Of a DNA stretch of 64,000 nt, positions 9,876-62,831 are shown piece by piece. How positions within the stretch are numbered: position 1 is the stretch's first letter; each line of letters starts with the position of its first letter. A program made the position numbers and the translations under genes. The stretch comes from Brevibacterium sp. ZH18 (lineage in GTDB: Bacteria; Actinomycetota; Actinomycetes; Actinomycetales; Brevibacteriaceae). Location: positions 62,001 to 126,000 of the forward strand of contig NZ_JALDSX010000002.1 in NCBI RefSeq assembly GCF_022748595.1, given 5' to 3'. The notes under the pieces were generated by a model. It made no database searches and had not been told where the DNA came from. It saw nothing but the letters and a program-made list of their open reading frames with translations.

Positions 9876-9938
9876 CACAGTCGGAGAAGTTGCCTGTTCA
9901 GTCAGAGAAGTTGCCGGCTCAGTCGAAGTAGGCGTCGA
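9876..9938. repeat. 21-bp tandem repeat spanning the acuC stop codon
   Basis: Three 21-bp units begin at 9876, 9897 and 9918; the first two agree at about 17 of 21 bases. The acuC stop (9919-9921) is in the last unit and a second in-frame TGA is exactly 21 bases further (9898-9900). Read through on the minus strand the frame gives FD, stop, AGNFSD, stop, TGNFSD. The tail of acuC therefore seems to have been copied downstream in frame. Confidence 0.8.
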
Positions 9939-11115
9939 GGCCGAAGAAGGGAAAGAGGTTCTTGCGGGTACCCATGATCGCGCGGTCGAGCTCGGACTCC
10001 GGATCGTAGCCGTTCGTCCACGGGGTGAACTCCCCGTCAAAGCCATCGGTCATCGACAGCGGCGCCTCCCGCCCGGTCTTCGTCTGCGCATAGTCGGCCC
10101 AGCGGCCGGGAATGCGGGCGGCAGGGTCGATGTCGCGTCCGGCTGAGATCGCGACCAGGTTCGTCCACGCGCGGGGCACGACGTCGATGATCGAGTAGCC
10201 GCCTCCCCCGGTGGCCAGCCATGTGCCCCCGGTGTGCTTCTCGGCGAGGTCGCGGACCCACTCAGTAGCCACGCGCATCGCGTCCACGCTCAGGCGCATA
10301 TGGGTCAGCGGGTCGCTGCGGTGCCCATCGCAGCCGTGCTGGGAGACGATGATCTGCGGGTCGAATCCTTCGACGATCGCCGGGATCGTCGCATCGAAGG
10401 CGCGCAGCCAGTCCCCATCGAGTGTGCGTGGGGGCAATGCGATGTTCGCCGCCGAGGCTGCTGCCCGCAGTCCCCCGATCTCGGCGGGGAAGCCGGAGCC
10501 GGGGAAGAGGAATTTGCCGGATTCGTGCATGGAGATCGTGAGCACGCGAGGGTCGTCCCAGAAGAACTTCTCCACCCCGTCCCCGTGGTGGGCGTCGAGG
10601 TCGATGTAGACGATGCGCTCATATCCGGCCTCGAGGAACTCCGTGATCGCGCCGGCGATGTCGTTGTAGACGCAGAATCCGCTCGCATAGTCGGGCATTG
10701 CGTGGTGCATGCCGCCCGTGAAGTTCACAGCACGACGGTAGCCGCCGGAGATGATCGACTGCGCTGCGTCGACCGAGCCCTGGAATAGCATCGCCGAGGC
10801 GGCGTGCATGTTCTCGAAGCTCGGCACGTCTTCGGTCCCGATTCCGTACTTCTTCGCCTCCTCATCGGTCAGCGATGCACTGGAACCCGCCTTCTTCACA
10901 GCCGCGATGAAGCCTTCGTCATGGAGCGCTGCGAGCTTGGCCTCGTCGACTTCGCTGACACCGTTGACGTGGACATTGTCGGCATCGAAGAGACCGAAGT
11001 CCATCGCCAGCTTCGCGGTCAGGTCGAGCCTGAGGGGATGCATGGGATGGCTGGGACCGAAGTTGTACCCGGTCACCGCTTCGTCCCAGACGACATAAAC
11101 ATCACTATCGGCCAT
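9919..11115 (-). CDS. acuC: Acetoin utilization protein AcuC (class I/II histone deacetylase family)
   Basis: A 398-residue deacetylase. It shows the family's metal and catalytic residues: GGMHHAMPDYASGFCVYND (tandem His), YIDLDAHHGDGVEKFFWDD (Asp/His zinc ligands) and SQHGCDGHRSDPLTH. AcuC removes acetyl groups from lysines, classically reactivating acetyl-CoA synthetase, so it fits the acetate and propionate genes elsewhere in the window. The start at 11115 (MADSDVYVVWDEAVTGY) is taken over one seven codons upstream because the family alignment begins near it. It is divergent from the potassium uptake genes. Confidence 0.94.
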   Translation of the reverse strand: MADSDVYVVWDEAVTGYNFGPSHPMHPLRLDLTAKLAMDFGLFDADNVHVNGVSEVDEAKLAALHDEGFIAAVKKAGSSASLTDEEAKKYGIGTEDVPSFENMHAASAMLFQGSVDAAQSIISGGYRRAVNFTGGMHHAMPDYASGFCVYNDIAGAITEFLEAGYERIVYIDLDAHHGDGVEKFFWDDPRVLTISMHESGKFLFPGSGFPAEIGGLRAAASAANIALPPRTLDGDWLRAFDATIPAIVEGFDPQIIVSQHGCDGHRSDPLTHMRLSVDAMRVATEWVRDLAEKHTGGTWLATGGGGYSIIDVVPRAWTNLVAISAGRDIDPAARIPGRWADYAQTKTGREAPLSMTDGFDGEFTPWTNGYDPESELDRAIMGTRKNLFPFFGLDAYFD

Positions 11116-11174
11116 GGGACCAATGCTATATGGCACAGCTCACTTGCGGAGATTCGGTGCCCGTGCGATCTACC

Positions 11175-13347: not shown

Positions 13348-14109
13348 TCAGATCTGATCCGGTATTACCTCTCGCCAGAACAGTTTCTTGGGTGCGGGGT
13401 CGAGCTCAATCTCCGTCGTAGAGTCCTTGCCTGACAGAAGTTGTTCTCGTGCTTCCTTCATCATCGTGACCAGTCGCCTCTCGAGCTCGGCCAGGAACCA
13501 TTCGAGCGTCTCGTGCCTGCTGACCAGCGCGACTGACCGCCCCTTGACTTCGATTCCCGCATACTTGCCCCGCTCATTCGGGCCCAGGCGCGTGACTGGT
13601 GAGTCGAAGGGAAGTGTCGGCTCCTCACTGCCATTCATGTCACTGCCATTCATCTCACTGTCATTGAGCGGCAAGCCCTGTGAGAATTCGGTCAGGGCTT
13701 CACCGACGTGGTTCCATGAGCTGATCGCGTTCTCCAACCGGTGGACAAAGGACATCGTCACCGTCTCCAGTGTGTCGAAGCAGCGCTCTGGCAGGTCGTT
13801 CCAGCCGTCTGCCCCGAAGCTTGAGTCCAACCGCTCAAGCTCGTTGTCGGCCAGATCGAGGAAGTCCGGCCACAGTCGCTCAATCAGCTCCCTGCGACGC
13901 TCGAGCAGTTCCGCTTCACGCTCAAGCAGACTCGCGAGCTCATCGTCGATGGCACGGACATCACGGTCTTCGATGGGCAGATGGGCTGTGAGGGCATGAG
14001 CAGCTAACTGTGTCGCACGCAACCGCTCGAGCTTATTCAGCTCCGAGTGCACCGTCATGAGGGCGGAATGCAGGCGCGCCACTCGAAAGAACTGTTCGTT
14101 GTTGTTCAC
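13348..14109 (-). CDS. Protein of unknown function, coiled-coil rich
   Basis: I do not recognise this 253-residue protein. The N-terminal half is rich in Leu, Glu and Arg with heptad-like spacing (ARLHSALMTVHSELNKLERLRA; LLEREAELLERRRELIERLW), suggesting a coiled coil. A middle segment holds a five-residue repeat (MNGSD/MNGSE) made by 15-bp DNA repeats. The C-terminus (YAGIEVKGRSVALVSRHETLEWFLAELERRL) looks globular. There is no signal peptide or membrane segment. The GTG start at 14109 has GGAAAGAGAG upstream; the frame stays open to 14325, but that part crosses the symporter terminator. It stands alone between convergent ktrA and the symporter operon. Confidence 0.6.
   Translation of the reverse strand: MNNNEQFFRVARLHSALMTVHSELNKLERLRATQLAAHALTAHLPIEDRDVRAIDDELASLLEREAELLERRRELIERLWPDFLDLADNELERLDSSFGADGWNDLPERCFDTLETVTMSFVHRLENAISSWNHVGEALTEFSQGLPLNDSEMNGSDMNGSEEPTLPFDSPVTRLGPNERGKYAGIEVKGRSVALVSRHETLEWFLAELERRLVTMMKEAREQLLSGKDSTTEIELDPAPKKLFWREVIPDQI
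13628..13672. repeat. 15-bp in-frame repeat inside the unknown coiled-coil gene
   Basis: Roughly three units of the type tgccattcatgtcac follow one another and encode the NGSDM/NGSEM repeats. Being 15 bp long they keep the frame. Confidence 0.6.
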
Positions 14110-14245
14110 TGAGGCTCTCTTTCCGCCGACTCGCTGCGACTGCGCATCGTTGTGAAAAGAGTATGTCCCGGCACTGACACGGCCGGTTCGCACGAGGCGC
14201 CGCCCTGAACCGGTGAGCCCTGAACCGGACAGCGTTGCAGACAAC

Positions 14246-14279
14246 GACGGAGGGGACGGCCTCAGCCGCCCCCTCCGTC
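14246..14279 (-). terminator. Strong hairpin downstream of the symporter gene
   Basis: Fifteen-base arms GACGGAGGGG(G/A)CGGC with a four-base loop; on the minus strand the single mismatch becomes a G-U pair. It lies about 75 bases after the symporter stop and has no clear T tract, as is common in actinobacteria. Confidence 0.65.
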
Positions 14280-14354
14280 TGTGTGCCTCGAGGCCTGTGT
14301 ACCTCGCGCTGTCGTCGTCAGTCAAACGAATAACGATGCGAAGTGCACGTGGAA

Positions 14355-21439: not shown

Positions 21440-21479
21440 CTGGTGACTCAGACGAGGGTCTGATGGCTCAGACGAAGGC
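21440..21479. repeat. 20-bp tandem repeat spanning the glpF stop codon
   Basis: Two 20-bp units (ctggtgactcagacgagggt and ctgatggctcagacgaaggc) match at 16 positions. The glpF stop is in the second; a matching TGA lies exactly 20 bases downstream in the gene's direction, in a different frame. Confidence 0.7.
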
Positions 21480-22190
21480 TCGGGAAAGCAGACCGGCGAT
21501 GATGGCGCCGACCAGGGGCCCGGCGATCGGGACCCACGAATAGGCCCAGTCCGAGCTGCCTTTGTTCGGGATGGGCAGCAGTGCGTGGACGATGCGGGGG
21601 CCGAGGTCACGTGCCGGGTTGATCGCGTAGCCGGTGGGGCCGCCCAAGGAGGCGCCGATGGCGACGACGAGGAGGCCGACTGCCAGTGGTCCCAGCTTGT
21701 CGGGGGTTCCGCCGAAGAGCAGGATGACGAACACGAGGACGAATGTGGCGATGACCTCGGTGACGAAGTTCCAGCCGTAGCTGCGGATCTCAGGACCGGT
21801 CGAGAAGGTTCCTAGGATGTTGCCGGCGTCCTTCTCCTCGTCGTAGTGCTTCTTGTACACAGCCCAGGCGAGGACCGCACCGATCATGGCGCCGATCATC
21901 TCGGCCGCGAGATAGGCGACGGTGTTGACGAAGTTGACCGGAATGCCGTCCGCGTATTCCGGTGCTCCGCTCGCGAGGATGCCGAAGGTCACCGCCGGGT
22001 TGAGGTGCGCTCCGGTCTTGAATGCGACGAAGACACCGGCGAAGACTGCGAGGCCCCAGCCGAACGAGATGAGGAGCCAGCCCCCTCCGTTGCCCTTCGT
22101 CTTGCCCAGAACCACATTGGCGACCACGCCGACGCCGAGCAGCATGAGCATCGCCGTTCCGCCGATCTCATAAAGGAAAATAGTACCCAT
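21468..22190 (-). CDS. glpF: Glycerol uptake facilitator (MIP family)
   Basis: Aquaglyceroporin, 240 residues, with six membrane segments and both pore NPA motifs: HLNPAVTFG in the first half and AINPARDLGPR in the second. The Asp after the second NPA is typical of glycerol-conducting members. It lets glycerol diffuse in for GlpK. It lies between glpD and glpK on one strand. Confidence 0.96.
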   Translation of the reverse strand: MGTIFLYEIGGTAMLMLLGVGVVANVVLGKTKGNGGGWLLISFGWGLAVFAGVFVAFKTGAHLNPAVTFGILASGAPEYADGIPVNFVNTVAYLAAEMIGAMIGAVLAWAVYKKHYDEEKDAGNILGTFSTGPEIRSYGWNFVTEVIATFVLVFVILLFGGTPDKLGPLAVGLLVVAIGASLGGPTGYAINPARDLGPRIVHALLPIPNKGSSDWAYSWVPIAGPLVGAIIAGLLSRAFV

Positions 22191-33375: not shown

Positions 33376-33432
33376 TGGTCAGGACTGATTGATGAAGGCT
33401 CAGACCTGCTTCACGGAGTTTCAGACTTGCTT
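33370..33432. repeat. 21-bp tandem repeat spanning the stop of the SRPBCC-like gene
   Basis: Three 21-bp units begin at 33370, 33391 and 33412. In-frame TGA codons (minus strand) occur at 33421, 33400 and 33379, exactly 21 bases apart. Read through, the tail is KQV, stop, NSVKQV, stop, AFINQS, stop, so the last coding residues recur after the stop. The farthest unit also contains the ykoC stop from the other strand. Confidence 0.85.
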
Positions 33433-33999
33433 GATGAGATCTTTGAGGAAGGCGCGCCAATCCTCGAGAGCCTCGGCGCTCATCAGCTTCGAGGCCGTGA
33501 CGACGAGGACCGATTTCTCGCCGGACTTCGAATCGGACTTCGAGCCGGATTTCGGGGCCGCCTTCGACTCAGCCGCGGCTTCGATCTTGCTGCCGTCGGC
33601 GAGATTCGCACGCCAGAAGGAGCGCTTCGGCGTCTCGGACGTGCGCGGTTCCCCGTCGAGGTCGACGCCGTTCATAGAGCCATCGACGAGTTCTGCGAAG
33701 CTCCTGACCACCTCGGTGCGCTCCCCCGCCACAGTGCGTGAGACCGCGACGTCGAAGGTTCCGTCGGCCCGCTGGCCGGGCACACGTGAACCGATCTCCT
33801 GCTCATAGGCGATGACGGCGCCTTGGACCCACCAGCCGTGCTTCTCCACGACCCCCTCGAACTGCGGGTAGAGGGCGTCGGCGAGTTCCTTATGACTCGC
33901 CGACGTCCCACCAGCCGCTTCGAGGCGGGCCCTGGTGTCCGCCCAGGGTTCGCCGAGTGCCTTCTCGATCGCCGCCACATTCATCGCTTTGGTCGCCAT
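33421..33999 (-). CDS. SRPBCC-like small protein
   Basis: A 192-residue protein with an N-terminal helical part (AAIEKALGEPWADTRARLEAAG). The region around WWVQGAVIAYEQEIGSRVPGQRADGTFDVAVSRTV and the tail ASKLMSAEALEDWRAFLKDLI resemble bacterial SRPBCC proteins with an N-terminal DUF4287-like part. That likeness is from memory of the pattern, not a search. A Lys/Ser-rich segment (KAAPKSGSKSDSKSGEKS) sits between. Function unknown; probably cytoplasmic. The last codons lie in a 21-bp tandem repeat. Confidence 0.65.
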   Translation of the reverse strand: MATKAMNVAAIEKALGEPWADTRARLEAAGGTSASHKELADALYPQFEGVVEKHGWWVQGAVIAYEQEIGSRVPGQRADGTFDVAVSRTVAGERTEVVRSFAELVDGSMNGVDLDGEPRTSETPKRSFWRANLADGSKIEAAAESKAAPKSGSKSDSKSGEKSVLVVTASKLMSAEALEDWRAFLKDLIKQV

Positions 34000-34441: not shown

Positions 34442-34473
34442 TTCACACACGCTCGGTTTCAGACGCGCTCGGC
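34442..34473. repeat. 16-bp tandem repeat spanning the methyltransferase stop codon
   Basis: Two 16-bp units (ttcacacacgctcggt and ttcagacgcgctcggc) match at 13 positions; the stop at 34459-34461 recurs 16 bases downstream in the gene's direction. Confidence 0.65.
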
Positions 34474-44453: not shown

Positions 44454-44503
44454 TACGCAGTCCTGCCGGACGCGGTCCAGTGCCGCCTTCGTCCCGGCCC
44501 CGC

Positions 44504-44557
44504 AATCGGCGAGGTGTCAGTATTCGGCGAGGTGCCGGCAATCGGCGAGGTGTCAGC
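44504..44557. repeat. 18-bp tandem repeat beside the ArgA-like gene stop
   Basis: Three 18-bp units (aatcggcgaggtgtcagt type) begin at 44504, 44522 and 44540, directly next to the stop at 44559-44561. Two of the three carry TGAC on the minus strand. Confidence 0.8.
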
Positions 44558-49077: not shown

Positions 49078-49081
49078 AAAC

Positions 49082-50641
<1,560 letters not shown>

Positions 50642-50739: not shown

Positions 50740-51630
50740 TCAGTCGAGGGACGACAGGATCTCCTGTGCCTGGACATCGGTGATCCGCCCCAGGCTCACC
50801 GCCTTCGCCGTGGTCGAGCGAGCCAGCGCGATGTAGCTGTTGCGCGTGGCCGGGTTGGAGACGCTGAGACTGTATTCGCTCAACGCAGCCAAGTGCGCGG
50901 CAATCGTGCCCACGTCTCCCCTGCTGACCGGTCCGGTCAGAGCCCTCGACCCGTTCTGCAGCGTGTTCGACACGCTCGCGTCGACCAGTGCGGTGAGCAC
51001 GCGGGAGGGATCACCGACCCCCGCCTCGGCGAGCATGTCCATGGCTTCGCTGATGATCGTGATCGAATGGTTCGACGCATGGGTGATCGCCGCATGGTAG
51101 AGCGGACGGTCCGCCTCGGCGATCTCGATCGGCTCGCCTCCCATCTCCACTACGAGGGCCTCCCCCACGGGACGGATCGGGGCCGGGGCGGTGACGGCGA
51201 TCGTCGCCTGACGCAGGCGCGGCAGATCGACGGTCGTGCCCGTGAACGACAGCGACGGATGCAGTGCGATCGGCAGGGCACCGAGGCGGGTCCCGGCTTC
51301 CAGCACATCCGTGCCGTATCTGCCGGAACAGTGGACGAGGATCTGCCCCGCGTGGATACGTCCGACGGTGGCCAAACCGCTGACCAGCGACTCGATCTCG
51401 TCATCGGGCACAGCCACGAGCAGGAGCTCAGCTCGTTCGGCGACGTCGTCCGGAGGCAGGATCGGTACGCCCGGGAGCATCTCCTCAGCCCGTTCGCGAC
51501 TCTGCGCCGAGGTGGCGCTGACACCGATGATCGCATGACCGGCCTCGCGCCAGGCCGCGCCGATGGTCGCTCCGACCTTGCCGCAGCCGATGATCCCGAT
51601 CCCCAGGCGGGGTGCTTCGTCCTGGCTCAT
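50740..51630 (-). CDS. Rossmann-like/DUF2520 protein
   Basis: A 296-residue protein with a Rossmann N-domain ([31 protein letters not shown]) and a helical DUF2520 C-domain ([35 protein letters not shown]). This family resembles F420-dependent NADP reductases and imine/ketopantoate reductases; in actinobacteria it is usually next to panC and has been proposed to act in pantothenate or coenzyme synthesis. panC is not adjacent here. The ATG overlaps the PH-domain gene stop (ATGA), which fixes the start. Confidence 0.86.
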
Positions 51631-53405
51631 CGCCGCTCCTCCTTGGCCGCACGGGCCTCCTCGTCGAACTTCTGTCGTGCCAGTCGTGTGCGCTCCGAAT
51701 GCTCGGCGAAGAATCTCTTCGCCTCGTCGACGCTCTGGTGGGTCACTCGCGGATCGATCGGTCCCGCCGTCGAATGCACATCGACGGTAGCCAGCCCGAG
51801 CTTCCGCATCAGCGGTCCCTGGCGGTACCTCATCGACTGCACTCTGACATGCGGCACGAAGTCGACGCGGCGATCGAGCACCCCCAGGCGCAGGATGAGG
51901 AGGGACCCGGTCAGGGCGTAGGCGCGTCGCTTCCACGCCAACGGATCGATGATTCTCGAAGACCGCGGCTGGTCGTGGAACAGTGCCTCTGCTGACGGCG
52001 CCAGTGGGTCCTCGGACTTCCTGTCGTACATGGCCGTGCGGACGAGGGTGTCTGCCCGGATGCCCTCCGGCAGCTGCGGGTCGGGCAGCGCCAGACCGAC
52101 CATGAGCAGAGCCTGGTCGATGTCGCCGACCGGCAGCAGCAGGTTCGACTCACCCGATCCCCCGGCGCTGGCGATGTTGTATTCGGCCTTCCACCATCCG
52201 GCCCAGCGCCACAGCAGCGGCTGGTGGAGGCTCACGGCCTGGAGCCGATCGAGTGGGATGACCTTGCGCGAGGTGGAGAAGAGTCCGTGGTTGACGGCAA
52301 GACCGTGCTCGTCGAGGCGGACGACGAAGTTCGCGTTGTCGAGATTCTTCCGAAACACGGAGAAGGCCGCGAAGATGCCGGGCAGCACACCCACGAGCAT
52401 CGGGATGAAGGCCTCCGTGATGCCCATTGCCAGCAGCACGATCGCGACCGCGATGACCAGGAGGACGACGAGGACAGAGATGATCGTCTCTGATTTGAGC
52501 AGGGAGGAGACGACGACTCGGTGGACCGGAACGCGGATGATCTCTCCCTCCCGGCCGATCCTCGGTGAGAGATTGTACGGTGCCAGAAGCTCGCCGAGGC
52601 TGTTCTCAGCTTCGTGCGAGACGTCTTCAGCCATCGCGCCGAGCCGTTTGCTCAGGCGCACGCCGAGGCTGTCGTCGCGTCGTTCGGGCACCGAATGATC
52701 GATGCCCGGCTTCTCCCTTTCGGCGACCGGATCGAGCACCTGTGCAGCACCGCCGTCGACGGGATCTTCCGTATCGCCGATTGCGGACGCAGGACCCGTG
52801 CCGAGCCGTTCGACACCCGGGGCAGCCTCGGCGGACTGTTGGTTCTGGCCCGACTGCTTCTTCGCTTTGACCGCGGCGAGGAGTTCGTCGCGCAGCTCCT
52901 CGGCGCGCTTCTTCGACAGGTATTTGAGCGAGATGTTCGAGTCGGTTCCGCCGGCCACGTCGAAGACGAGCTCGGCCATGCCCATGAGCCGGGGCAGCAG
53001 CTTCTGCTGCAGGTCGATTGACTGGACGCGGTCCAGCCGAGCCTTGCGCTGCTTCTTCGACAGCAGTCCGCGACGGTAGTAGATGGCCTCGGCGTCGACG
53101 CGATAGCCCATCACTCGCCAGGCCAGCCAGCTGAACAGTGCCGTCAGCAGCAGGACGAGCACGATTGCGCCGACGCCGGCGAGGATGACGAGCGGGTGGG
53201 TGCGCAGCCAGCCGGCGAACCCGAGATCGACACCGTCACCGGTGGCCAGGCCCTCGATCGCGTTCTGCACGAAGTTCTGCAGCCCGTAGGCGGCCGCGAC
53301 GAAGATGGCGACCAGGACACCCAGACTCTCGAGAATCGGAGTCAGAGGGTGGACACGATGCCAGACCTCGGGCGCCGAGGGATCGCTGAGTTTCTCATCC
53401 GCCAT
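51627..53405 (-). CDS. PH-domain membrane protein (YdbT-like)
   Basis: A 592-residue protein with several membrane segments (LTPILESLGVLVAIFVAAAYGL; VILAGVGAIVLVLLLTALFSWLAW; a pair around ISVLVVLLVIAVAIVLLAMGI) and three bacterial PH (bPH2/YdbT) domains. Each domain shows the family pattern of a YRRGLLSKKQRKARLDRVQSIDLQQ type strand. In Bacillus, YdbST confers resistance to a yeast-like antimicrobial; here the job is unknown. Ala/Glu-rich charged linkers lie between domains. A GTG two codons upstream (53411) is an alternative start overlapping the next stop. Confidence 0.87.
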   Translation of the reverse strand: MADEKLSDPSAPEVWHRVHPLTPILESLGVLVAIFVAAAYGLQNFVQNAIEGLATGDGVDLGFAGWLRTHPLVILAGVGAIVLVLLLTALFSWLAWRVMGYRVDAEAIYYRRGLLSKKQRKARLDRVQSIDLQQKLLPRLMGMAELVFDVAGGTDSNISLKYLSKKRAEELRDELLAAVKAKKQSGQNQQSAEAAPGVERLGTGPASAIGDTEDPVDGGAAQVLDPVAEREKPGIDHSVPERRDDSLGVRLSKRLGAMAEDVSHEAENSLGELLAPYNLSPRIGREGEIIRVPVHRVVVSSLLKSETIISVLVVLLVIAVAIVLLAMGITEAFIPMLVGVLPGIFAAFSVFRKNLDNANFVVRLDEHGLAVNHGLFSTSRKVIPLDRLQAVSLHQPLLWRWAGWWKAEYNIASAGGSGESNLLLPVGDIDQALLMVGLALPDPQLPEGIRADTLVRTAMYDRKSEDPLAPSAEALFHDQPRSSRIIDPLAWKRRAYALTGSLLILRLGVLDRRVDFVPHVRVQSMRYRQGPLMRKLGLATVDVHSTAGPIDPRVTHQSVDEAKRFFAEHSERTRLARQKFDEEARAAKEERR

Positions 53406-53407
53406 GG

Positions 53408-53908
53408 TCACAGGCCTGCCAGGTTCGCCTGGCCCAGCCCGGCGAGGCTGTCGCGCAGACGGTCGGCCTCGGCGCGCGGCAGTCCGGGAATCGTGGCATC
53501 GGTCGATGCCGAAGCAGTGTGGAGTTTGACCGTGGCGAGGCCGAACATGCGGTCGATGGGACCCGCGTCGACGTCGACGAACTGCAGTCGTCCGTAGGGA
53601 ACGACCGTGGCCTTGTGGAACATGATTCCGCGACGGACGAGGAGGTCGTCTTCCCTCTCCGCGTAGCCGATGGCTCTGGCCTGGCGCAGGATGATGACGA
53701 TGAGGACGACACTGAACGCGACGAGAGCTGCCCAGATCGCGTGCAGCCACGGCAGCTCGGCTGTGTAGATGATCGCGAAGACCAGGGCCACGACGATCAT
53801 CGGAACAAGGATCGTCAGCGAGGCGATGGTCTCCTTGAGGCCGTATTTAGGACTGACCCTGTTGAAGTCCGCGTCCATTCCGTTCAGGTAGTTGAAATCA
53901 TGGCTCAT
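53408..53908 (-). CDS. PH-domain membrane protein (YdbS-like)
   Basis: A 166-residue protein with two membrane segments (ASLTILVPMIVVALVFAIIYTA and LHAIWAALVAFSVVLIVIIL) followed by a bPH2 domain (EDDLLVRRGIMFHKATVVPYGRLQFVDVDAGPIDRMFGLATVKLHTAS). It pairs with the larger YdbT-like protein, with which it is coupled, and probably forms a membrane complex. The start overlaps the DUF3180 stop (ATGA). Confidence 0.88.
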   Translation of the reverse strand: MSHDFNYLNGMDADFNRVSPKYGLKETIASLTILVPMIVVALVFAIIYTAELPWLHAIWAALVAFSVVLIVIILRQARAIGYAEREDDLLVRRGIMFHKATVVPYGRLQFVDVDAGPIDRMFGLATVKLHTASASTDATIPGLPRAEADRLRDSLAGLGQANLAGL

Positions 53909-54366
53909 GCTGTTTCGGCTCCTGGAGGATCTTGGGGAGGGAGGACACAGAACCCTTCGACGATGAGTCCGACGATCATCAGGGCCGCGGCCGAGATTAC
54001 CGCGAAGAGCATGCCAGCGGCCAAATCGTTGCGGAAGCCGGGAGCGGACAGGAAGTAGTAGCCTGCGTTGCCCAGGTACCAACCCGCCAATCCGGCTCCG
54101 GTCAGAGCACTTGCCTTGGCCATGACGGCCACGCGGGCCGCCTGGAGCGGGTCGATCTCCTTCGTGCGGTCCCCGTCGTTCCAGCGTTTGATCGGCCAGC
54201 CGAGCACCAGCAGAATCGCTGCGAGCACGAGCATTCCGATGATGGCGAACCACGGCAGACCCGGTAAGGAGAATCCCTGGCTTTCGAGCAGCACATTGAC
54301 CACCGGTGCCAGTACGGCACCGATGACGGCCCAGATGACGAGAGTGCCCGACGCGGTTCGCTGCAT
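53905..54366 (-). CDS. DUF3180 family membrane protein
   Basis: A 153-residue protein with four hydrophobic segments: GTLVIWAVIGAVLAPVVNVLL, WFAIIGMLVLAAILLVLGW, a shorter one at ALTGAGLAGWYLGNAGYYF, and GMLFAVISAAALMIVGLIVEG. DUF3180 genes follow folK in most actinobacteria, and their function is unknown. The gene is 28 bases downstream of folBK and coupled to the PH-domain genes. Confidence 0.9.
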   Translation of the reverse strand: MQRTASGTLVIWAVIGAVLAPVVNVLLESQGFSLPGLPWFAIIGMLVLAAILLVLGWPIKRWNDGDRTKEIDPLQAARVAVMAKASALTGAGLAGWYLGNAGYYFLSAPGFRNDLAAGMLFAVISAAALMIVGLIVEGFCVLPPQDPPGAETA

Positions 54367-54394
54367 AGCTCCCAGTCTCTCAAATCACAGGCAC

Positions 54395-55324
54395 CTATGG
54401 TGCCGTGATTCGCCTGATTTCCTGGTCGTCGACTTCGGCGAGTGCCGCAGTCAGCGATCGTCGACCAGTTGGGGTGAGGATTTCCGTGTCGCCGACGAGC
54501 TCGGCCCAGGGTGCGAGCACGAAGGCACGCTCATGGGCTCGCGGATGCGGCAGGGTCAGTGTCGGTGAGTCACAGACCAGTTCGTCGGATCCGGTACCGA
54601 AGCGGATGAGGTCGATGTCGAGAGTCCGCGGCCCCCAGCGCAGCTCACGGGTCCGGCCACAGGCGACCTCGATGCCCTGTGCCACGGCCAGCAGCTCGTT
54701 GGCCGGCAGACTCGTGGACACGATGAGTCCCAGGTTGAGGAAGTCGTTCTGCTCGACCCCGCCCCAGGGCGCAGTGCGATAGAACGATGACCGCTTGGCC
54801 ACGGTGATCCGGGGATGCCGATCGAGCGCCTCGACCGCTTGGTCGAGGGTGTCCTTGGCCTCGCCGAGGTTGGCCCCCAGATTGAGGTACGCCTCGGTTT
54901 CCGTCGGCTCGGGTTGCGCCCGGGAGCGTACGACACCGACGCTGACGTCGTTGAAGCTGCGTTGGATCGGAGCACCGGGCTTGTGCACGACGACTTCGGC
55001 AAGGTCGGCCACGGTCAGGCAGTGGTCGGCGATGTGCTCGGCGAGAGTCTCGATGAGGTCGAACGTATTGTCTTCGACGATGTGGGCGACAGCTTCGGCC
55101 AGTTCACCGTAGTGAATGGTGTCCGCGATGGCATCCGATGCCGCGGCCCGAGCGACCGAGGTGTGGAGGACGACGTCGATGACGAAGTCCTGGCCCTCTC
55201 GCTTCTCGAAGTCGAAGACACCGTGGTTGCCGCGGACTGTCAGCCCGCGCAGCTCGATGCGATCGGGATGCGTCTGAGGGGTGCCAGTGGGTCGAGCCGA
55301 AGGCTCAGCGTTAGCGCCCATCAT
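54395..55324 (-). CDS. folK: Fused dihydroneopterin aldolase / HPPK
   Basis: Bifunctional folate enzyme of 309 residues. Residues about 22-130 are FolB (IELRGLTVRGNHGVFDFEKREGQDFVIDVVL; the catalytic Lys in VVVHKPGAPI). Residues about 143-300 are HPPK (LNLGANLGEAKDTLDQAV; YRTAPWGGVEQNDFLNLGL; RWGPRTLDIDLIRFG; LPHPRAHERAFVLAPW). It makes 6-hydroxymethyl-dihydropterin and pyrophosphorylates it. Fusion of these two steps is well known. It overlaps the folP stop (ATGA). Confidence 0.95.
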   Translation of the reverse strand: MMGANAEPSARPTGTPQTHPDRIELRGLTVRGNHGVFDFEKREGQDFVIDVVLHTSVARAAASDAIADTIHYGELAEAVAHIVEDNTFDLIETLAEHIADHCLTVADLAEVVVHKPGAPIQRSFNDVSVGVVRSRAQPEPTETEAYLNLGANLGEAKDTLDQAVEALDRHPRITVAKRSSFYRTAPWGGVEQNDFLNLGLIVSTSLPANELLAVAQGIEVACGRTRELRWGPRTLDIDLIRFGTGSDELVCDSPTLTLPHPRAHERAFVLAPWAELVGDTEILTPTGRRSLTAALAEVDDQEIRRITAP

Positions 55325-56211
55325 GCTCGGCCCTCGAGTCCTGGAGTATGAGCCGTGACGGCGCCGATGACCTTGCAGGCGATCACCGACGTCGCCGGAT
55401 CGTGCACGCGCACGGCCCAGGCCCCGGCCTGAGCCGAGAGCCCCGAGATGGCAGCGGTCGCCTGATCCTTCGCTGCCTCCTCGGCGAGGTTCGGATCCTC
55501 CGGCGAGAGCAGCGTCGAGATGAAGCGCTTGCGACTGGCGGCCACGAGCAGTCGATGGTCGAGGCTCACGAACTCATCGAGGGCGGCAAGGATCTGCCAG
55601 TTGTGCTCAGCGTTCTTCGAGAACCCCAGCCCCGGGTCGAGGATGATGTTCTTCGGCTCGACACCGACGGTGATCGCTTCGTCGATGCGCGTCTTCAGCT
55701 CGGAGATCACCTCGGCGACGACGTCGTCGTAGTGGAAGGTGGCCGAAGCCCGGTCGAGGTATCCACGCCAGTGCATGAGGACGACGGGAGCACCGGATTC
55801 CGCTGCCACGGTGAGCATCGACGGATCCGACAGCCCTGCCGAGACGTCGTTGATGATGTGGGCGCCGGCGGCCAACGATGCCTCAGCAACTCGGGCACGC
55901 ATCGTGTCGACGCTGATCACAGCATTGGCGGCGGCCAACTCTCGGACGACGGGCACGACTCGGCGCAGTTCCTCCGCTTCGTCGACGCGTACCGATCCCG
56001 GACGGGTCGATTCCCCGCCGACGTCGATGATGTCAGCGCCAGCGGCCAGGAGTTCGAGACCATGCGCCACGGCCCGGCCATGGTCGAAGTAGCGCCCTCC
56101 GTCGGAGAACGAGTCAGGGGTGACGTTGAGGACGCCCATGATCTTCATACGCTCTGGATTCGCCTTCGCTGGTTTCGACATGGCTGGTTCAGACATGGCT
56201 GGTTCAGACAT
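55321..56211 (-). CDS. folP: Dihydropteroate synthase
   Basis: Joins pABA to the pterin pyrophosphate. The 296-residue TIM barrel has MGVLNVTPDSFSDGGRYFDH, DVGGESTRPGS, and the active-site regions NDVSAGLSDP and DPGLGFSKN; RKRFIS-type loop reads VAASRKRFIST. The first ten residues are a repeat, MSEPAMSEPA followed by MSKPA, so ATG codons at 56211, 56196 and 56181 are all possible starts. The folE stop lies 11 bases upstream. Confidence 0.95.
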   Translation of the reverse strand: MSEPAMSEPAMSKPAKANPERMKIMGVLNVTPDSFSDGGRYFDHGRAVAHGLELLAAGADIIDVGGESTRPGSVRVDEAEELRRVVPVVRELAAANAVISVDTMRARVAEASLAAGAHIINDVSAGLSDPSMLTVAAESGAPVVLMHWRGYLDRASATFHYDDVVAEVISELKTRIDEAITVGVEPKNIILDPGLGFSKNAEHNWQILAALDEFVSLDHRLLVAASRKRFISTLLSPEDPNLAEEAAKDQATAAISGLSAQAGAWAVRVHDPATSVIACKVIGAVTAHTPGLEGRA

Positions 56212-56224
56212 GGCTGGCCTCTCA
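56181..56224. repeat. 15-bp tandem repeat at the folE end and folP start
   Basis: Two exact 15-bp copies of TGGCTGGTTCAGACA (plus strand) plus a third, altered copy that reaches the folE stop at 56222-56224. On the coding strand each unit carries CTGA followed by CCAGCCATG, so the DNA provides both the folE stop and repeated folP start codons. Confidence 0.8.
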
Positions 56225-56845
56225 GCCCCGCATGATCAGGCTCATGGCCTCGGCCCGGGAGGCAGTTTCGCGCAGTTGACCGCGGACCGCCGACGTGATG
56301 GTCGAGGCACCAGGTTTGCGCACACCTCGCATGGTCATGCACAGGTGCTCGGCCTCGACGACGACGATAACGCCGCGTGGTTCGAGATGTTCGACGAGCG
56401 CATCGGCGATCTGCGTCGTCAGCCGCTCCTGAACCTGTGGCCTCCGAGCGTAGATCTCGACGAGTCGAGCCAACTTGGACAGACCCGTGACTTTGCCGGT
56501 CTTACTGGGGATGTAGCCGACGTGAGCGACTCCGTGGAAGGGCACAAGGTGGTGCTCGCACATCGAATACAGGTCGATGTCACGCACGAGGACCATCTCC
56601 TCGTGGCTGATGTCGAAGGTCACGCCGAGGACGTCAGCCGGATCCCGATGGAGTCCGGCGAAGACCTCTTCATAGGCGCGGGCGACTCTGGCCGGTGTCT
56701 CCACCAAGCCTTCGCGGTCAGGATCCTCGCCGACGGCGATGAGGATCTCACGAATCGCTGCTGCGATCCGCGGCTGATCGACCAGGTTCCCGGTGCCTTC
56801 AGGGGCCTCTCCGAGTACTGCAGACACATTGTCGATTTCGGACAT
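56222..56845 (-). CDS. folE: GTP cyclohydrolase I
   Basis: First enzyme of folate (pterin) synthesis, 207 residues. Zinc ligands and active site are [25 protein letters not shown] and [17 protein letters not shown]; the fold pattern [17 protein letters not shown] precedes. Complete. It shares one base with the ftsH stop (TGATG) and is followed by folP. Confidence 0.97.
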
Positions 56846-58968
56846 CAGTATCCGTTTCCTCTCCCGTCATCGGGATTCTGGGGCCCACTCGGTCCTGTCG
56901 GACCGTTGGGGTCGATGGGTCCTGTCGGGTTGTGCGGGACCTGAGGGCCGTTGGACCCTGTCGGACCTGCACCCGGGATGTCAGTCGTGTCGACTCCCGA
57001 ATGTCCCTGGCCGTAGCCGCCGCGGTCACCGCTGAGTGGAGCCGGAGGATCGATGGGACCACGCTCGGAGACAGGGCGTTCGTCGTTGGCCAGCCACACA
57101 TCGCGGGTGGGGCGTTTGACGATAGGTTCGAAGATCACAGCCAGTGCCGCCTGGTCGAGGGTCTCCCGCTCGAGCAGCTGATAGGCCAGGTTGTCGAGGA
57201 CGTCGCGGTTGTGAGTCAGTGCCCAATAGGCATCGGCATGGGCGGCATCGATGATATTGCGAACCTCACGGTCGATCGACGACAGGGTCGAATCGCCGTA
57301 CTCGTCGCCGCCGCCGTAGCCGCGACCGGCGAACGGCTCGGACTGGTCGTCGCCGATCTTGACCATGCCCAGCTTCTCGCTCATGCCGTACTGGGTGACC
57401 ATCTTCCGTGCGATGTTCGTCGCCTTCTCGATGTCGTTGCTGGCGCCGGTGGTGGGATCGTGGAAGACGACTTCCTCGGCTACACGACCGCCCATGGCGT
57501 AGGCCAACTGGTCGAGCAGTTCGTTGCGGGTCGTCGAGTACTTGTCCTCGCTGGGCAACACCATGGTGTAGCCCAGTGCCCGACCGCGGGGAAGAATGGT
57601 GACCTTCGTGACCGGGTCGGTCTGGTTCATAGCCGCTGCGACCAGCGCGTGCCCACCTTCGTGGTATGCGGTGATGAGGCGTTCCTTGTCGTTCATCAGG
57701 CGGGTCCGCTTCTGCGGTCCTGCGATGACTCGGTCGATCGCCTCGTCGAGGATGCGGTTGTCGATGACCTTCGAGTTCTCACGTGCGGTCAGCAGGGCTG
57801 CCTCGTTGAGGACGTTGGCCAGGTCCGCGCCCGAGAAGCCCGGGGTGCGCTTGGCGACCTGTCCCAGATCGACGTCGGGGGCAAACGGCTTGCCTTCGGC
57901 GTGAACCTGAAGGATGTGCTGGCGACCCTTCATGTCCGGGGCCTCGACAGGGATCTGCCGGTCGAAGCGGCCAGGGCGCAGAAGCGCCGGATCGAGTACG
58001 TCGGGACGGTTGGTCGCGGCGATGAGGATGACGTTGGTCTTGACATCGAAGCCGTCCATCTCAACGAGGAGCTGGTTGAGCGTCTGTTCGCGCTCATCGT
58101 GACCGCCGCCCATGCCTGCGCCGCGCTGACGGCCGACAGCGTCGATCTCGTCGATGAAGATGATGCAGGGAGCGTTGGTCTTGGCCTGCTCGAACAGGTC
58201 GCGCACACGGGACGCACCGACGCCGACGTACATCTCGACGAAGTCCGAGCCCGAGATGGAGTAGAAGGGCACGCCGGCCTCGCCGGCCACGGCCTTTGCC
58301 AGCAGGGTCTTACCTGTACCGGGCTGACCGTAGAGCAGAACGCCCTTGGGGATCTTCGCTCCCACGGCCTTGAACTTCTCCGGTTCGGCCAGGAATTCCT
58401 TGATCTCCTCGAGCTCTTCGAGTGCCTCGTCGACGCCGGCGACATCCTTGAACGTGATGTCGGGGTTTTCTTTGTTGACGAGCTTCGCCTTCGATTTGCC
58501 GAAGTTCATCATCTTCCCGCCGGACATCTGCGAGATGAGGAACCAGAACACAACGAAGATGATGACGAACGGGATCAGCGTGCCCAGCAGTGACATCAGC
58601 CAGCTCTGCTTGGGCACCTCATCGGTGAATCCCTGGCTGGGCTTCGCGGTGTCGACAGCCTTGACGATCTGGTCGCCGCGCTGCTCGACGTAGTAGAACT
58701 GGACCTTCTTGCCGAAGTCCTTGCCCTCGATCTTCAGATCCTTCTTCAGGGTCAGATCGACGCGCTGGTCGGTGTCGACGATCTTGGCCTGCTCGACCTG
58801 CTTGTCATTCAGCAGTTTGAGACCCTGCTCCGTGTCGATCTGGCTGAATCCGGTGCGGCTGAAGAGAAGAGCGCCGATGGACACTACGAGCAGTGCCATC
58901 ACGATCCAGATCAGGGGGCCTTTCGTCGCCTTGTTGAGCAGTGGGCGACGCTTATTCGACTCGGCCAT
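56845..58968 (-). CDS. ftsH: ATP-dependent zinc metalloprotease FtsH
   Basis: Membrane AAA+ protease of 707 residues. Two membrane segments (about 18-37 and 123-148) flank the extracytoplasmic part. The AAA domain has GQPGTGKT at 214-221, [15 protein letters not shown] and arginine-finger region [11 protein letters not shown]. The protease zinc motif is HEGGH (436-440), where many FtsH have HEAGH. The last 55 residues are Gly/Pro/Asn-rich repeats of the [11 protein letters not shown] type, probably disordered. It degrades misfolded membrane proteins. hpt lies upstream across a repeat-filled spacer. Confidence 0.97.
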
Positions 58969-59140
58969 AAGTCCTCTCAGGAAAAAGATGTGGGTAACCT
59001 GTCCAGGCTACCGAGGCTGCCTGGGAACATCCCCCACAGCCTAGTACCTCGCACTGACATAGCTCGAATGCGTCCGGTTTTGTTCCCGACCTGCGCAAGG
59101 TGTCAGGAAATGCGAGGGACGCTCGGGCACAATCCTCAGC

Positions 59141-59280
59141 TGCAGACGGACTGCGTCAGCTGTAAACGGACAGCGCCAGCTGCAGACGTGCTGCGTCAGC
59201 TGTCAACGGACAGCGTCAGCTGTAGACGTGCTGCGTCAGCTGTCAACGGACAGCGTCAGCTGTAGACGTGCTGCGCGAGT
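59141..59280. repeat. Seven 20-bp tandem units at the hpt 3' end
   Basis: Seven gapless 20-bp units start at 59141, 59161, 59181, 59201, 59221, 59241 and 59261. Two unit types alternate in the nearer five: tgtagacgtgctgcgtcagc and tgtcaacggacagcgtcagc. Every unit carries a CAGCTG across its junction. The hpt stop (59256-59258) and last coding residues (QHVYS) lie in the final two units, and TGA recurs every 20 bases downstream. Confidence 0.92.
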
Positions 59281-59807
59281 GTCGCGACGAACGGAACGTT
59301 GCGGTACTTCTCCGCGTAGTCGAGTCCGTAGCCGATGACGAATTCGTTGGGCACGTCGAAGCCGACGTATTTGACGTCGATGTCGACCTTGACGGCCTCC
59401 GGCTTACGCAGCATCGTGCAGATTTCGACGGTGGCGGCGCCGCGGGAGCGCAGGTTCTGGACCAGCCAGGACAGGGTGAGTCCCGAGTCGATGATGTCTT
59501 CGACGATGAGCACATGACGGTCGGAGAGGTCGGTGTCGAGGTCCTTGAGGATGCGCACGACTCCAGAGGACTTGGTTCCGGAACCGTACGAGGAGACGGC
59601 CATCCAGTCCATCGTCACCGGCGAGTGCAGTGCGCGCGCCAGGTCGGCCATGACCATGACGGCACCCTTGAGGACACCGACGAGCAGGATGTCCTTGCCC
59701 TTGTAGTCTTCATCGATGGCGGCTGCCAGTTCAACGAGTCGTGCGGCTATCTGTTCTTCCGAGACGAGTACTTTTTCGATGTCATTGCCGAGATCGTTGA
59801 TGTCCAC
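59256..59807 (-). CDS. hpt: Hypoxanthine phosphoribosyltransferase
   Basis: Purine salvage enzyme, 183 residues, converting hypoxanthine or guanine to nucleotides with PRPP. The PRPP loop is VLIVEDIIDSGLTLSWL; GVLKGAVMVMADLARAL and SYGSGTKSSGVVRIL are family segments. The GTG at 59807 has GAGGAG at 11 bases and gives the usual N-terminus (DINDLGNDIEKVLVSEEQI); a GTG at 59858 adds 17 residues with no clear RBS. In most actinobacteria it directly follows tilS, but here a transporter/amidohydrolase pair intervenes. Confidence 0.94.
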   Translation of the reverse strand: MDINDLGNDIEKVLVSEEQIAARLVELAAAIDEDYKGKDILLVGVLKGAVMVMADLARALHSPVTMDWMAVSSYGSGTKSSGVVRILKDLDTDLSDRHVLIVEDIIDSGLTLSWLVQNLRSRGAATVEICTMLRKPEAVKVDIDVKYVGFDVPNEFVIGYGLDYAEKYRNVPFVATLAQHVYS

Positions 59808-59963
59808 AGGTGTCGGTTCTCCTCGCTTGGGGTGGGGTGTGCTCCCATTATGGTTCACTATCGACCTGAGGTGCCACTGCGAACGTCTCGACAGCCGAAG
59901 TCAACGTCATTCGCCGGACTTGACCGCGTCCTCCGCGGCCCGGTTCAACCTGCGTGAACACCA

Positions 59964-60027
59964 GAGCTCGAGGTCACCGAGGTTCGAGGTTGTCAGGACT
60001 CGAGGTCACCGGGGCTCAAAGTCACCG
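59964..60027. repeat. 16-bp tandem repeat spanning the MFS gene stop
   Basis: Four 16-bp units (gagctcgaggtcaccg type) begin at 59964, 59980, 59996 and 60012. The stop at 60022-60024 is in the last; identical TGACs recur at 16-base steps, with one unit shifted. Confidence 0.8.
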
Positions 60028-61293
60028 GTGTTCGGCCAGCTCCTCGTCGACCGTTCCCGGCGAGGCGGCGAGGAATCCGGTCACGCCCATGAGCGCCGAG
60101 ACCCCGACCATGAGCGACAGCGGGACTGACCATCCCCCGCTGAACCCGAGCAGTCCACCGACAGCCAACGGCCCGATTGCGGCCAGCACATACCCCGAGG
60201 ACTGAACGAACGCCGAGGTCCGCGCGGTGACAGAGACGTCGCGCGTGCGTCCGGTGATAAGGGCGAGCGCGGCGGGGAAGGCGAACCCGCCGTAGGACAG
60301 CAGGATCGCCCAGAGCACTGGGGTCGCAGCGGGAGCCAAGAGAAGCCCGAGATAGCCCAGAACAGCACTGACTGCGAACGTGACCAGGAAGAATCGGGGC
60401 AGAATGCTGCGCATGATGATCTGCGGGGCGAGGAATCCGCCGGGCAGGCCACCGAGGGTGACGATCGTGAGCATGAGGCCGGCCAGCACCGGGTCGAGAC
60501 CGGCATCCCGGTAGACCTGCGGCAACCAACCGAACTGCACGTAGGCGTTGGCGGACTGCAGGCCGAAGAACATGGCCATGTACATGGCCTTGCGTGAGGT
60601 GAAGATATGCCGCCGAGGCGGTGCCACCTCGTGCGACTCGGGTGCACGCTGGCGCAGGTTGGGAACCGATCCAGCCAATCTCAGCACGATCCAGGTCACG
60701 AGTGCCCCGACGGGAACGAGCGCCCAGACGCCGAGGCCGATGCGCCAGTCATCGAAATGACCGGCGATCGGAGCTGTGAGCAGGGCAGGGAACATCGCGC
60801 CCAGACCCAGAGAGACGGTGAAGGCTGTCGCCCCGAGACTTGGCCGGTCGGGGAAGCGTGTCTTCACATAGACAGGCAGGATGACGTTGCCGATCGACAT
60901 GCCTGCCAAGGCGACCACGGTCAGACCGGCGAAGCCGAGCCACTGATCAGTGAGCACACGCCCACCGACTCCGACGATGACGAATGAACAGGCGATGACA
61001 AGGGAGGCGAACAGTCCCACGCGTCTGAGCACGGGCACAGCGATGAATCCGCAGATCGCGAAGACCATGCCCGGAAGCGCGGTAAGCAGACCGGTCTGCC
61101 ACTCGAGGAGTGAGTACGCGGTCTTGAGTTCCGAGAGGACGGGCCCGAGCGACGATGCCGCCGGACGCAGCGAGGAGGCGATGAGGATGAGGCAGATGAG
61201 TGCGAGCACATCGAGACCTCTGCCGGTGCGATGTCCTGGCAGGGCGTTGGGCCTCTGTTCAGCAGGGAGTGCGCTCTCGGGCTGGGAACTCAT
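60022..61293 (-). CDS. MFS transporter (CynX/NimT-like)
   Basis: A 423-residue major facilitator with about 12 hydrophobic segments. The start (VLALICLILIASSLRPAASSLGPVLSELKTAYSL) and VFAICGFIAVPVLRRVGL fit the cyanate/nitroimidazole (CynX/NimT) subgroup. The exact substrate is unknown. It is divergent from an amidohydrolase gene, with a palindrome between, so the transporter may import that enzyme's substrate, such as a pyrimidine-like compound. Confidence 0.85.
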   Translation of the reverse strand: MSSQPESALPAEQRPNALPGHRTGRGLDVLALICLILIASSLRPAASSLGPVLSELKTAYSLLEWQTGLLTALPGMVFAICGFIAVPVLRRVGLFASLVIACSFVIVGVGGRVLTDQWLGFAGLTVVALAGMSIGNVILPVYVKTRFPDRPSLGATAFTVSLGLGAMFPALLTAPIAGHFDDWRIGLGVWALVPVGALVTWIVLRLAGSVPNLRQRAPESHEVAPPRRHIFTSRKAMYMAMFFGLQSANAYVQFGWLPQVYRDAGLDPVLAGLMLTIVTLGGLPGGFLAPQIIMRSILPRFFLVTFAVSAVLGYLGLLLAPAATPVLWAILLSYGGFAFPAALALITGRTRDVSVTARTSAFVQSSGYVLAAIGPLAVGGLLGFSGGWSVPLSLMVGVSALMGVTGFLAASPGTVDEELAEHR

Positions 61294-61364
61294 GGCTTCA
61301 TCCTGTCAGACGGGTGTTCAGCCGTCGGCATCTGGTCGGGTCGACTCGTGCATGCGGCCTCGCT

Positions 61365-61378
61365 AACGGTATACCGTT
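61365..61378. promoter_or_regulatory. Palindromic operator candidate between the MFS and amidohydrolase genes
   Basis: AACGGTATACCGTT is a perfect 14-base palindrome in the 150-base divergent promoter region. GGTATACC-type sites are typical of GntR-family regulators, but no regulator gene is adjacent. Confidence 0.55.
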
Positions 61379-61443
61379 TGAGGCGGACGTGCTTCGACTC
61401 GAATCGCGATGCACACAAAGCCGACAACTGAGAACCGAGGACG

Positions 61444-62766
61444 ATGATGACCATTCTCCGCAATGTGCGACTTGCTCCCACCCGCCACGACGATCCAGCA
61501 GCCGACGTCGAGATCGAGAACGGCCGCTTCACTCGGTTCACGCCGACCGTGCCCCAGACTGGTCCAACGCAGGCCGATTCAACGCAGACAGACCCAGCAC
61601 GGGTTGAGTCGAAGGCGGCAGGTTCGGCAGCGGCAGGGTCGGTCGGGTCCCAACCAGACGTGATCGACGGGGCCGGTCGGGTACTGCTGCCCAGCCTCGG
61701 CGATGTCCATGCCCATCTCGACTCCAATCGGATGGGTCAGACGTTCCGCCCGCACACCGCGGACGGGAGCCTGCACGGTCTGATCATGAACGACCGCGCC
61801 AATTGGCGCGACGGCGAGCGCAGCGTGAGAGACCAGGCGGCGTTCGCCACCGCTGTGATCATCGCTTCGGGCGGCACACGGATCCGCTCGCATGCGCAGA
61901 TCGATGCCGACTGCGGGCTCGAACGATTCACCGGCGTCCGCGATGCGCTGGCTGCTCACGCCGATGTTCTCGACTCGCAGATCGTGGCCTTCCCACAGGC
62001 GGGAATCGTCCGCGAGTCCGAGGTCAGAGACCTCCTCGATGCGGCGTTGAGCGAGGGTGCCGATCTCGTCGGCGGGCTCGATCCGCTCCAGTACGACCGG
62101 GATCCGGTCGCTCACCTCGATGTCGTCTTCGGACTCGCTGAGAAGCACGGTAAAGGCATCGACATCCATCTCCACGAACGCGGCACTGCAGGAGTCTTCT
62201 CCTTCGAGGAGATCGCTGCCCGGACGAAGGCGCACGGCATGGAGGGGCGAGTCACGATCTCGCATGCCTTCGCACTGAGCTCGAACCCGGACGCAGAGGT
62301 CGAGCGGATGGCCGACCTCATCGCCGAGGCGGGGATCTCCCTGACAACGGTGGCACCGCAGAACGGAGTCCTGCCGCAGCGGGTCCTCGCCGATCGCGAG
62401 GTCACACTCGGACTCGGCGAGGACGGACAGCGCGACTATTGGAGCCCCTACGGCGACGGCGACCTGCTGCGGCGGACCTGGCAGCTGGCCTTCACGAACG
62501 GCTTCCGCCGCGACGCGGACATCGCAGACTGCCTGGACATCGCCTCCCGCGGCGGTGCCAGGGTGATGGCCGGAGCTCGCCCCGATGGAACCTCGCTGAA
62601 ACAGGACGCCCGCTTCGGCCTCGGTGTCGGGGCGCCTGCGGACTTCGTGCTGCTCGAGGCCGACACGGTCACCTCGGCGATCATGGACTGCCCCGCCGGC
62701 CGCGATGTGTTCAAGGCGGGACGACTGGTGGCCTCCCACGGTGAACTCATCGGCGGAATGCGCTGA
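61444..62766 (+). CDS. Amidohydrolase, cytosine deaminase-like
   Basis: A 440-residue metal-dependent hydrolase. Metal ligands fit the family: SLGDVHAHLDSNRMG (HxH), GIDIHLHERG (His), TISHAFALSS (His) and LGEDGQRDYWSPYGDGDLL (Asp region). The closest subgroup is cytosine deaminase / N-isopropylammelide type enzymes, which deaminate ring compounds. A disordered Thr/Gln/Ala segment (residues about 35-70) interrupts the N-terminal part. The first two codons are both ATG; either may be the start. It pairs with the divergent MFS gene. Confidence 0.86.
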   Translation: MMTILRNVRLAPTRHDDPAADVEIENGRFTRFTPTVPQTGPTQADSTQTDPARVESKAAGSAAAGSVGSQPDVIDGAGRVLLPSLGDVHAHLDSNRMGQTFRPHTADGSLHGLIMNDRANWRDGERSVRDQAAFATAVIIASGGTRIRSHAQIDADCGLERFTGVRDALAAHADVLDSQIVAFPQAGIVRESEVRDLLDAALSEGADLVGGLDPLQYDRDPVAHLDVVFGLAEKHGKGIDIHLHERGTAGVFSFEEIAARTKAHGMEGRVTISHAFALSSNPDAEVERMADLIAEAGISLTTVAPQNGVLPQRVLADREVTLGLGEDGQRDYWSPYGDGDLLRRTWQLAFTNGFRRDADIADCLDIASRGGARVMAGARPDGTSLKQDARFGLGVGAPADFVLLEADTVTSAIMDCPAGRDVFKAGRLVASHGELIGGMR

Positions 62767-62789
62767 GGCAAGTGGCCTTCAGCCCCGAG

Positions 62790-62831
62790 CCGGCGTCAGC
62801 AAGCGGGCGTCAGCAAGCCGGCGTCAGCGGG
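62790..62831. repeat. 14-bp tandem repeat spanning the tilS stop
   Basis: Three 14-bp units (ccggcgtcagcaag type) begin at 62790, 62804 and 62818. The stop at 62824-62826 is in the last, and TGAs recur at 62810 and 62796, exactly 14 bases apart. Confidence 0.85.

Follow-up and report, generated by a model that had tools for sequence, protein, structure and literature searches.

Short tandem arrays with gene-specific units, some running over stop codons, are unusually dense in a Brevibacterium genome

Known tandem repeats and the arrays of this genome

Mycobacterial interspersed repetitive units (MIRU) stand in tandem at or near gene ends, vary in copy number and belong to a dispersed family of related sequence, and the short tandem duplications produced by strand slippage or microhomology are local direct duplications that expand, turn over and, inside genes, obey a frame constraint. 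Non-coding bacterial tandem repeats with units of 20-21 nt or 52 nt and variable sequence, found also in Actinobacteria, are reported in the accessible part of Subirana and Messeguer 2021 (PMC8161180). According to the accessible part of a study of Beggiatoaceae (PMC4679880), 13 sets of TAACTGA direct repeats overlap the stop codon of the upstream gene, and these repeats occur at the ends of open reading frames (ORFs) because they contain stops in all frames. The corresponding part of a survey of prokaryote satellites (PMC6749651) describes longer units in Methanosarcina that are usually multiples of three and reads them as protein repeats. Here we describe short tandem arrays with gene-specific units that run over or lie past stop codons in a stretch of 64,000 nucleotides from Brevibacterium sp. 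ZH18 (the window) and in a larger sample of the same genome.

These arrays have in common with MIRU the tandem units at or near gene ends and the variable copy number, but MIRU form a dispersed family of related sequence, whereas the units found here are unrelated and the array at hpt, for which alone a genome-wide search was made, has one match in the 3.82-Mb genome. A dispersed element is thereby ruled out, and the view of a first-pass annotation of the window, that the units are gene-specific and not copies of one element, was borne out. Local duplication, turnover and frame constraint are also those of slipped-strand or microhomology duplications; the difference lies in a frequency that is unusual in one lineage, with no enzyme defect found here.

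We defined an array as an ungapped self-match at an offset of 10-45 bp. The 85 intergenic arrays of this genome had units of 10-43 bp with a broad mode at 14-18 bp, and 11 of the 85 were 20-21 bp long. As far as the repeats of PMC8161180 are described in its accessible part, ours resemble them in being non-coding, species-specific and of a sequence that varies between arrays, with the exception of glpF, whose repeat is common to a sampled congener. The two differ in that unit length is fixed there, and in that a short word is common to most units there whereas few units share words here (27 of 3570 unit pairs share at least 9 bases, compared to 11 after shuffling). Like the TAACTGA repeats, the arrays are tandem repeats containing stop codons, but the former, as the same part of PMC4679880 presents them, consist of one common 7-bp word found mostly ahead of starts, whereas the latter are gene-specific and densest at 3′ ends. 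No description of gene-specific arrays spanning stop codons was found in the titles and abstract openings of the papers listed by searches of one open-access library. We regard the arrays as probably a known type of short tandem duplication, unusually dense in this genome.

Abundance and placement of the arrays

The sample of this genome covered 480 kb out of 3.82 Mb in 22 stretches (the window, L042 and L064-L083), leaving out 19 other contigs of less than 1.4 kb each. It was compared with 400 kb of a congener (G038); with 200 kb from each of two genomes of other families of the same order (G019 and G028); with the surroundings of ftsH, 20 kb each except for two shorter pieces, in 40 congeneric genomes, which represent one homologous region and together with G038 make up 41 of the 56 congeners; and with 80 loci, the best hpt loci among the matches listed, which come mostly from other Actinobacteria and include two from Brevibacterium and one titled Spirochaetaceae. 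The two Brevibacterium loci are the best hpt matches among those listed, at 91% and 85%, and the other 78 stand at 78% or less. Genes were called with a simple home-made caller based on codon usage, which makes some errors.

In the sample of this genome 25 of 379 called stops lay inside arrays with units of 10-45 bp, compared to 0 in each of five dinucleotide-shuffled sets (200-base windows), so that such arrays exceed chance. Thirteen of the 25 are on the plus strand and 12 on the minus strand; the first seven cases, all on minus-strand genes of the window, reflect gene orientation there, since 39 of its 55 called genes are minus. In a second test, a copy of the gene tail was sought in the following 90 bases and scored against dinucleotide shuffles (2000 for 13 window genes; 200 in a smaller rerun of 34459 and 33421). 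A score of at least 12 was reached at 13 of 373 gene ends, compared to a shuffle expectation of 0.0; control sites inside genes reached it in 4 of 332 cases. The congener set, including part of the window and L089, gave 2 of 680 gene ends and 7 of 607 sites inside genes. Stops inside arrays numbered 4 of 339 in G038, 10 of 168 in G019, 0 of 143 in G028, 1 of 653 in the 40 congeners and 19 of 1223 in the 80 loci; in the part of the window that matches the congener region (45001-64000) they were 2 of 14. The excess in this genome was significant relative to the congeners (Fisher test, 1.4e-10), G038 (1.9e-4) and the 80 loci (1.7e-6).

Array density pointed the same way. Intergenic arrays per kb were 1.02 in this genome, 0.22 in G038, 0.27 in the congeners, 0.56 in G019, 0.08 in G028 and 0.34 in the 80 loci, and the nearly perfect ones were 0.29, 0.07, 0.05, 0.20, 0.02 and 0.12, respectively. 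Coding arrays varied little among sets (0.10-0.17 per kb). By type of gap, density in this genome was 3.02 per kb in convergent, 1.07 in co-directional and 0.70 in divergent gaps. Together, these results show that this genome is an outlier, in which several times more arrays are made or kept than in congeners. A visual pattern is thus turned into a measure of the frequency with which short duplications form and persist in the noncoding DNA of bacteria, and the question arises what gives one Brevibacterium lineage about four times as many arrays as its congeners.

Array coverage per base was 0.038 in the last 20 coding bases, 0.109 at 0-20 bp past the stop, 0.149 at 20-40 bp and 0.111-0.095 at 40-100 bp. 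In co-directional gaps it was flat (0.089-0.108) to 100 bp past stops and 0.013 in the 20 bp ahead of starts. Placement was compared with random expectation at the 262 of 379 stops that have at least 10 bp of free flank, with the 30 bp ahead of a following start excluded and the flank limited to 120 bp. Under these settings the stop was covered at 21 eligible stops, with 14.2 expected. Convergent gaps contributed 13 against 9.3 (P = 0.10) and co-directional gaps 8 against 4.9 (P = 0.09); a 60-bp flank gave 13 against 9.3 and 8 against 6.0. In the 80 loci the values were 7 against 7.9 and 7 against 5.0, respectively, a total of 14 against 12.9 expected. The first-pass annotation had proposed a stop-linked feature that would fall if repeats were no more frequent at stops than elsewhere, and this test brings it near refutation. 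The stop codon itself is not special, its overlap with arrays being near expectation given their density, and what may remain is a mild preference of arrays for gene ends. As a separate observation, G019 also has many stop-covering arrays, with a stronger co-directional lean to gene tails.

Origin of the arrays and rival explanations

In our view the arrays probably represent recurrent short tandem duplications of local sequence that are tolerated where they are harmless and are commoner in this lineage. A stretch of 10-45 bp would be duplicated in place, either through slippage during replication or through the joining of staggered break ends; slippage at microhomology, one of the causes suggested at the outset, stands as a candidate. 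Within genes only duplications in multiples of three would then survive, and immediately before starts few would, a pattern seen in the coding arrays of this genome, 51 of 51 of which have units divisible by three (intergenic remainders 0/1/2: 37/23/25). Past stops duplications would be free, because one that spans the stop leaves the first stop in place and hence the protein unchanged. An existing array may later expand or decay, or other species may show a different array in its place, as a few loci indicate.

The history of these loci was followed from 45 query genes, comprising the 25 with an array-covered stop, 16 with an array at most 15 bp past the stop and 4 named in the first-pass annotation. 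Twenty-one of them had a readable orthologue in G038 or among the 40 congener stretches. These orthologues supplied 204 stops, of which five genes (hpt, folE, tilS, the MFS transporter gene and one gene in L067) account for 188. Only two of the 204 were covered, in one tilS orthologue and at glpF in G038, and an array lay just past the stop in two more. At hpt, the tail CAGCACGTCTACAGCTGA is common to 11 relatives that have no array, and the array in this genome repeats that same tail; nor was any array present at 41 relative stops, a set that overlaps the 11. The hpt array thus appears to be a derived state, and its alternating units suggest stepwise expansion.

The comparison at acuC covered the best 30 loci of 57 genomes, of which 29 including this genome were readable. 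Copies of 23 bp of the same gene tail occur in 6 of the 28 readable relatives (p < 0.01); G058 and G006 have three tail copies, and one variant base occurs both in the tail of G058 and in its first copy. The 21-bp array of G064 is unrelated. On the tree of the 29 rows the tail copies need 3 changes, 2 of them forced by well-supported branches, so that the tree fits a single origin followed by losses and also fits repeated gains. Among 17 readable relatives of the gene at 33421, the stop is spanned by an unrelated 21-bp array in G042, and a 17-bp array lies at it in G045, G008 and G007. The methyltransferase gene at 34459 had an array over its stop in 0 of 29 relatives. Presence, copy number or unit therefore differ among relatives at hpt, acuC and 33421, as seen in comparisons between species; the arrays could serve as strain markers.

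Several observations weigh against a plain rise in mutation rate or against parts of the account given above. Coding arrays stand at 0.128 per kb in this genome, compared to 0.102 for G038 and 0.105 for the 40 congeners, and nearly perfect ones at 0.030, 0.029 and 0.014, respectively; the near absence of a rise in coding arrays makes weaker selection on noncoding sequence no less possible than faster mutation. Placement is not perfectly even, the stop overlap in this genome being 1.5 times expectation. In convergent gaps coverage reached 0.150 and 0.201 over the first 40 bp, falling to 0.112-0.141 from there up to 120 bp, and array left ends were about twofold denser from -18 to +20 (0.0024-0.0040 per bp) than from +21 to +120 (0.0010-0.0018 per bp). 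In G019 the stop overlap was 5 against 3.1 expected and, in co-directional gaps, 4 against 1.0 (P = 0.008). A mild gene-end preference is accordingly tenable, given the left ends within about 20 bp of the stop and the excess in G019. The frame rule was broken once outside this genome, in G028, where 14 of 15 coding arrays were in frame. The repeat at glpF, a two-copy one, is nearly the same in G038 and so is not new here, and the gene calls are home-made.

Evidence on mechanism was equally mixed. Among 26 young perfect duplications, excess end homology was 0 in 7 and 2-13 in 19, and remnants of a third copy confound these values; slippage and end joining are not separated, because the excess homology is mixed. 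Loss of any of five repair families, surveyed for presence in 57 genomes of the genus, was rejected as the cause of the excess, since all five are present here, so that the excess is not explained by them: Ku was found in 39 of 57, including this genome and the low-array G038, exonuclease VII in 56 of 57, including this genome, and PolA-type 5′ nuclease, NucS and SbcC each in 57 of 57. To our knowledge, Actinobacteria mostly are without MutS-type mismatch repair, and this outlier genome offers a natural test of what sets the rate of 10-40 bp duplication in them.

The observations around the stop also bear on the notion of a mutational hotspot at gene ends, where the end of transcription or head-on collisions, for example, would preferentially duplicate gene tails. 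The twofold rise in left ends fits it, as do the 9 stop-covering arrays at eligible stops of G019 (4.1 expected) and the different arrays that the 3′ ends of acuC and 33421 bear in different species. We nevertheless hold it unlikely, because the overlap equals expectation in the 80 mostly actinobacterial loci, the excess in this genome is modest and may reflect functional sequence further downstream, and neither 34459 in 29 relatives nor hpt at 41 relative stops carries an array. In its fullest form, gene 3′ ends would be true duplication hotspots at which an event linked to transcription ending or to the passage of replication through gene ends copies tail and stop, repeatedly at some of the same loci across species, with this lineage in high gear; this we regard as doubtful to a similar degree, though if gene tails were hotspots, transcription ends would be linked to mutation.

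Functional readings fare worse than the tolerated local duplications that we favour. Terminators commonly sit 20-40 bp past stops, where array coverage peaks, density is highest in convergent gaps, and one of the two hpt unit variants could self-pair on direct reading, all of which would suit arrays that work at the RNA level, terminating the transcript or shielding it. However, array flanks were if anything less structured than array-free ones (z < -2 in 12% of 26 compared to 32% of 151; P = 0.07), so hairpin terminators are not supported; the units are unrelated, the orthologues mostly lack arrays, and no Rfam match at gathering scores was found at the arrays. A terminator or 3′-end processing role, which had been raised at first pass, is on these grounds quite improbable. 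The same annotation had offered selection for backup stops, in which arrays would be kept for repeated TGA codons, in one or several frames, that catch readthrough or frameshifted ribosomes. TGA is indeed kept in most downstream copies (28 of 35) and units not divisible by three place stops in other frames, but other triplets are kept almost equally (351 of 476; P = 0.55), the remainders 0/1/2 of unit length at covered stops (10/7/8) are as expected without selection, and many arrays sit wholly downstream of the stop. Ho and Hurst 2019 (PMC6764699) tested bacteria for selection of additional stops and, in the accessible part, report no evidence of it, and we consider backup stops very improbable indeed.

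Arrays and other repeats of the window

Seven stop-spanning arrays had been proposed in the window, all on the minus strand. Those at acuC, hpt and tilS are clear and are the ones among the named window genes whose stop lies inside an array by the ungapped-match definition; 34459, 33421 and glpF have weaker ones, with tail-copy p values of 0.0015-0.012, and the one at the MFS gene is marginal. The hpt array (59136..59275), seen by repeat finders and by direct reading, has a 20/40-bp periodicity, in which seven 20-bp units fall into two alternating variants, with the seventh a mix, to form a 40-bp higher-order unit; its first unit is the last 20 bases of the hpt gene itself (tail-copy p = 0.0005). 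At acuC (9878..9924, stop 9919-9921) a 21-bp array of 2.2 copies runs from the last codons into the 3′ flank, and at tilS (62788..62828, stop 62824-62826) a 14-bp array of 2.9 copies lies at the stop, both found by repeat finders and direct reading. Clear as these two arrays are, only their first 5-6 bases fall in the gene, and the tail-copy test gave p = 0.10 for acuC (0.11 in a smaller rerun) and no significance for tilS (p = 0.37, 2000 shuffles).

The gene at 33421 (33421-33999, 192 aa) has a diverged 21-bp tail repeat at its stop (33379..33441), and glpF a two-copy 20-bp repeat (21448..21487, stop 21468-21470); both were recognized by direct reading and the tail-copy test (p = 0.0055, or 0.020 with 200 shuffles, and p = 0.012, respectively). 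They consist of two or three diverged copies, absent from the list of Tandem Repeats Finder (TRF), and the glpF repeat is not specific to this genome, given the near-identical one in G038. The label SRPBCC-like given to the product of 33421 was not upheld, as no Pfam match was found at E 0.001. The repeats of acuC and 33421 had been described as in frame; on direct reading, a ribosome passing either stop would insert a residue for the stop codon and six others before it met the next TGA. TRF alone found two 16-bp repeats, one of 1.9 copies where the methyltransferase gene 34459-35061 stops (34442..34472; tail-copy p = 0.0015, or 0.010 with 200 shuffles) and a weak array, with 68% matches, at the stop of gene 60022-61293, which encodes the MFS transporter (59966..60027; p = 0.097).

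Two further loci, first taken as close variants of the stop repeats, proved to be otherwise. The 18-bp array of the GNAT acetyltransferase (ArgA-like) gene 44559-45161 (44502..44557, minus strand; repeat finders) begins 7 bp past the stop. In the interval from folE to the conserved portion of folP (ORF 55321-56211), a 15-bp array (56154..56217, minus strand) begins 5 bp past the folE stop; on direct reading it encodes MSEPA, MSEPA, MSKPA and supplies the folP ORF with several ATGs at its beginning, and because it is in frame there it belongs to the start of folP and does not count as a stop repeat. The folE/folP stretch is short and unrepeated in the three relatives inspected.

Other repeats of the window lie elsewhere relative to genes. 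A perfect 15-bp repeat of 2.4 copies with in-frame ATGs (40602-40637) stands just upstream of a called gene, presumably radA-like from its zinc-finger start. A 24-bp array of about 4 copies (48011-48120) lies upstream of ORF 45280-47838, a large one on the minus strand; GRFADRFA-like repeats would result in one frame, and no gene was called there. A 15-bp array at 13625-13665, within ORF 13348-14325, reads as MNGSD/MNGSE repeats in a minus frame. At gathering scores the only Rfam match of the window was a thiamine pyrophosphate (TPP) riboswitch at 30257-30365 on the plus strand (62.9 bits), which precedes plus-strand ORFs starting near 30325-30389.

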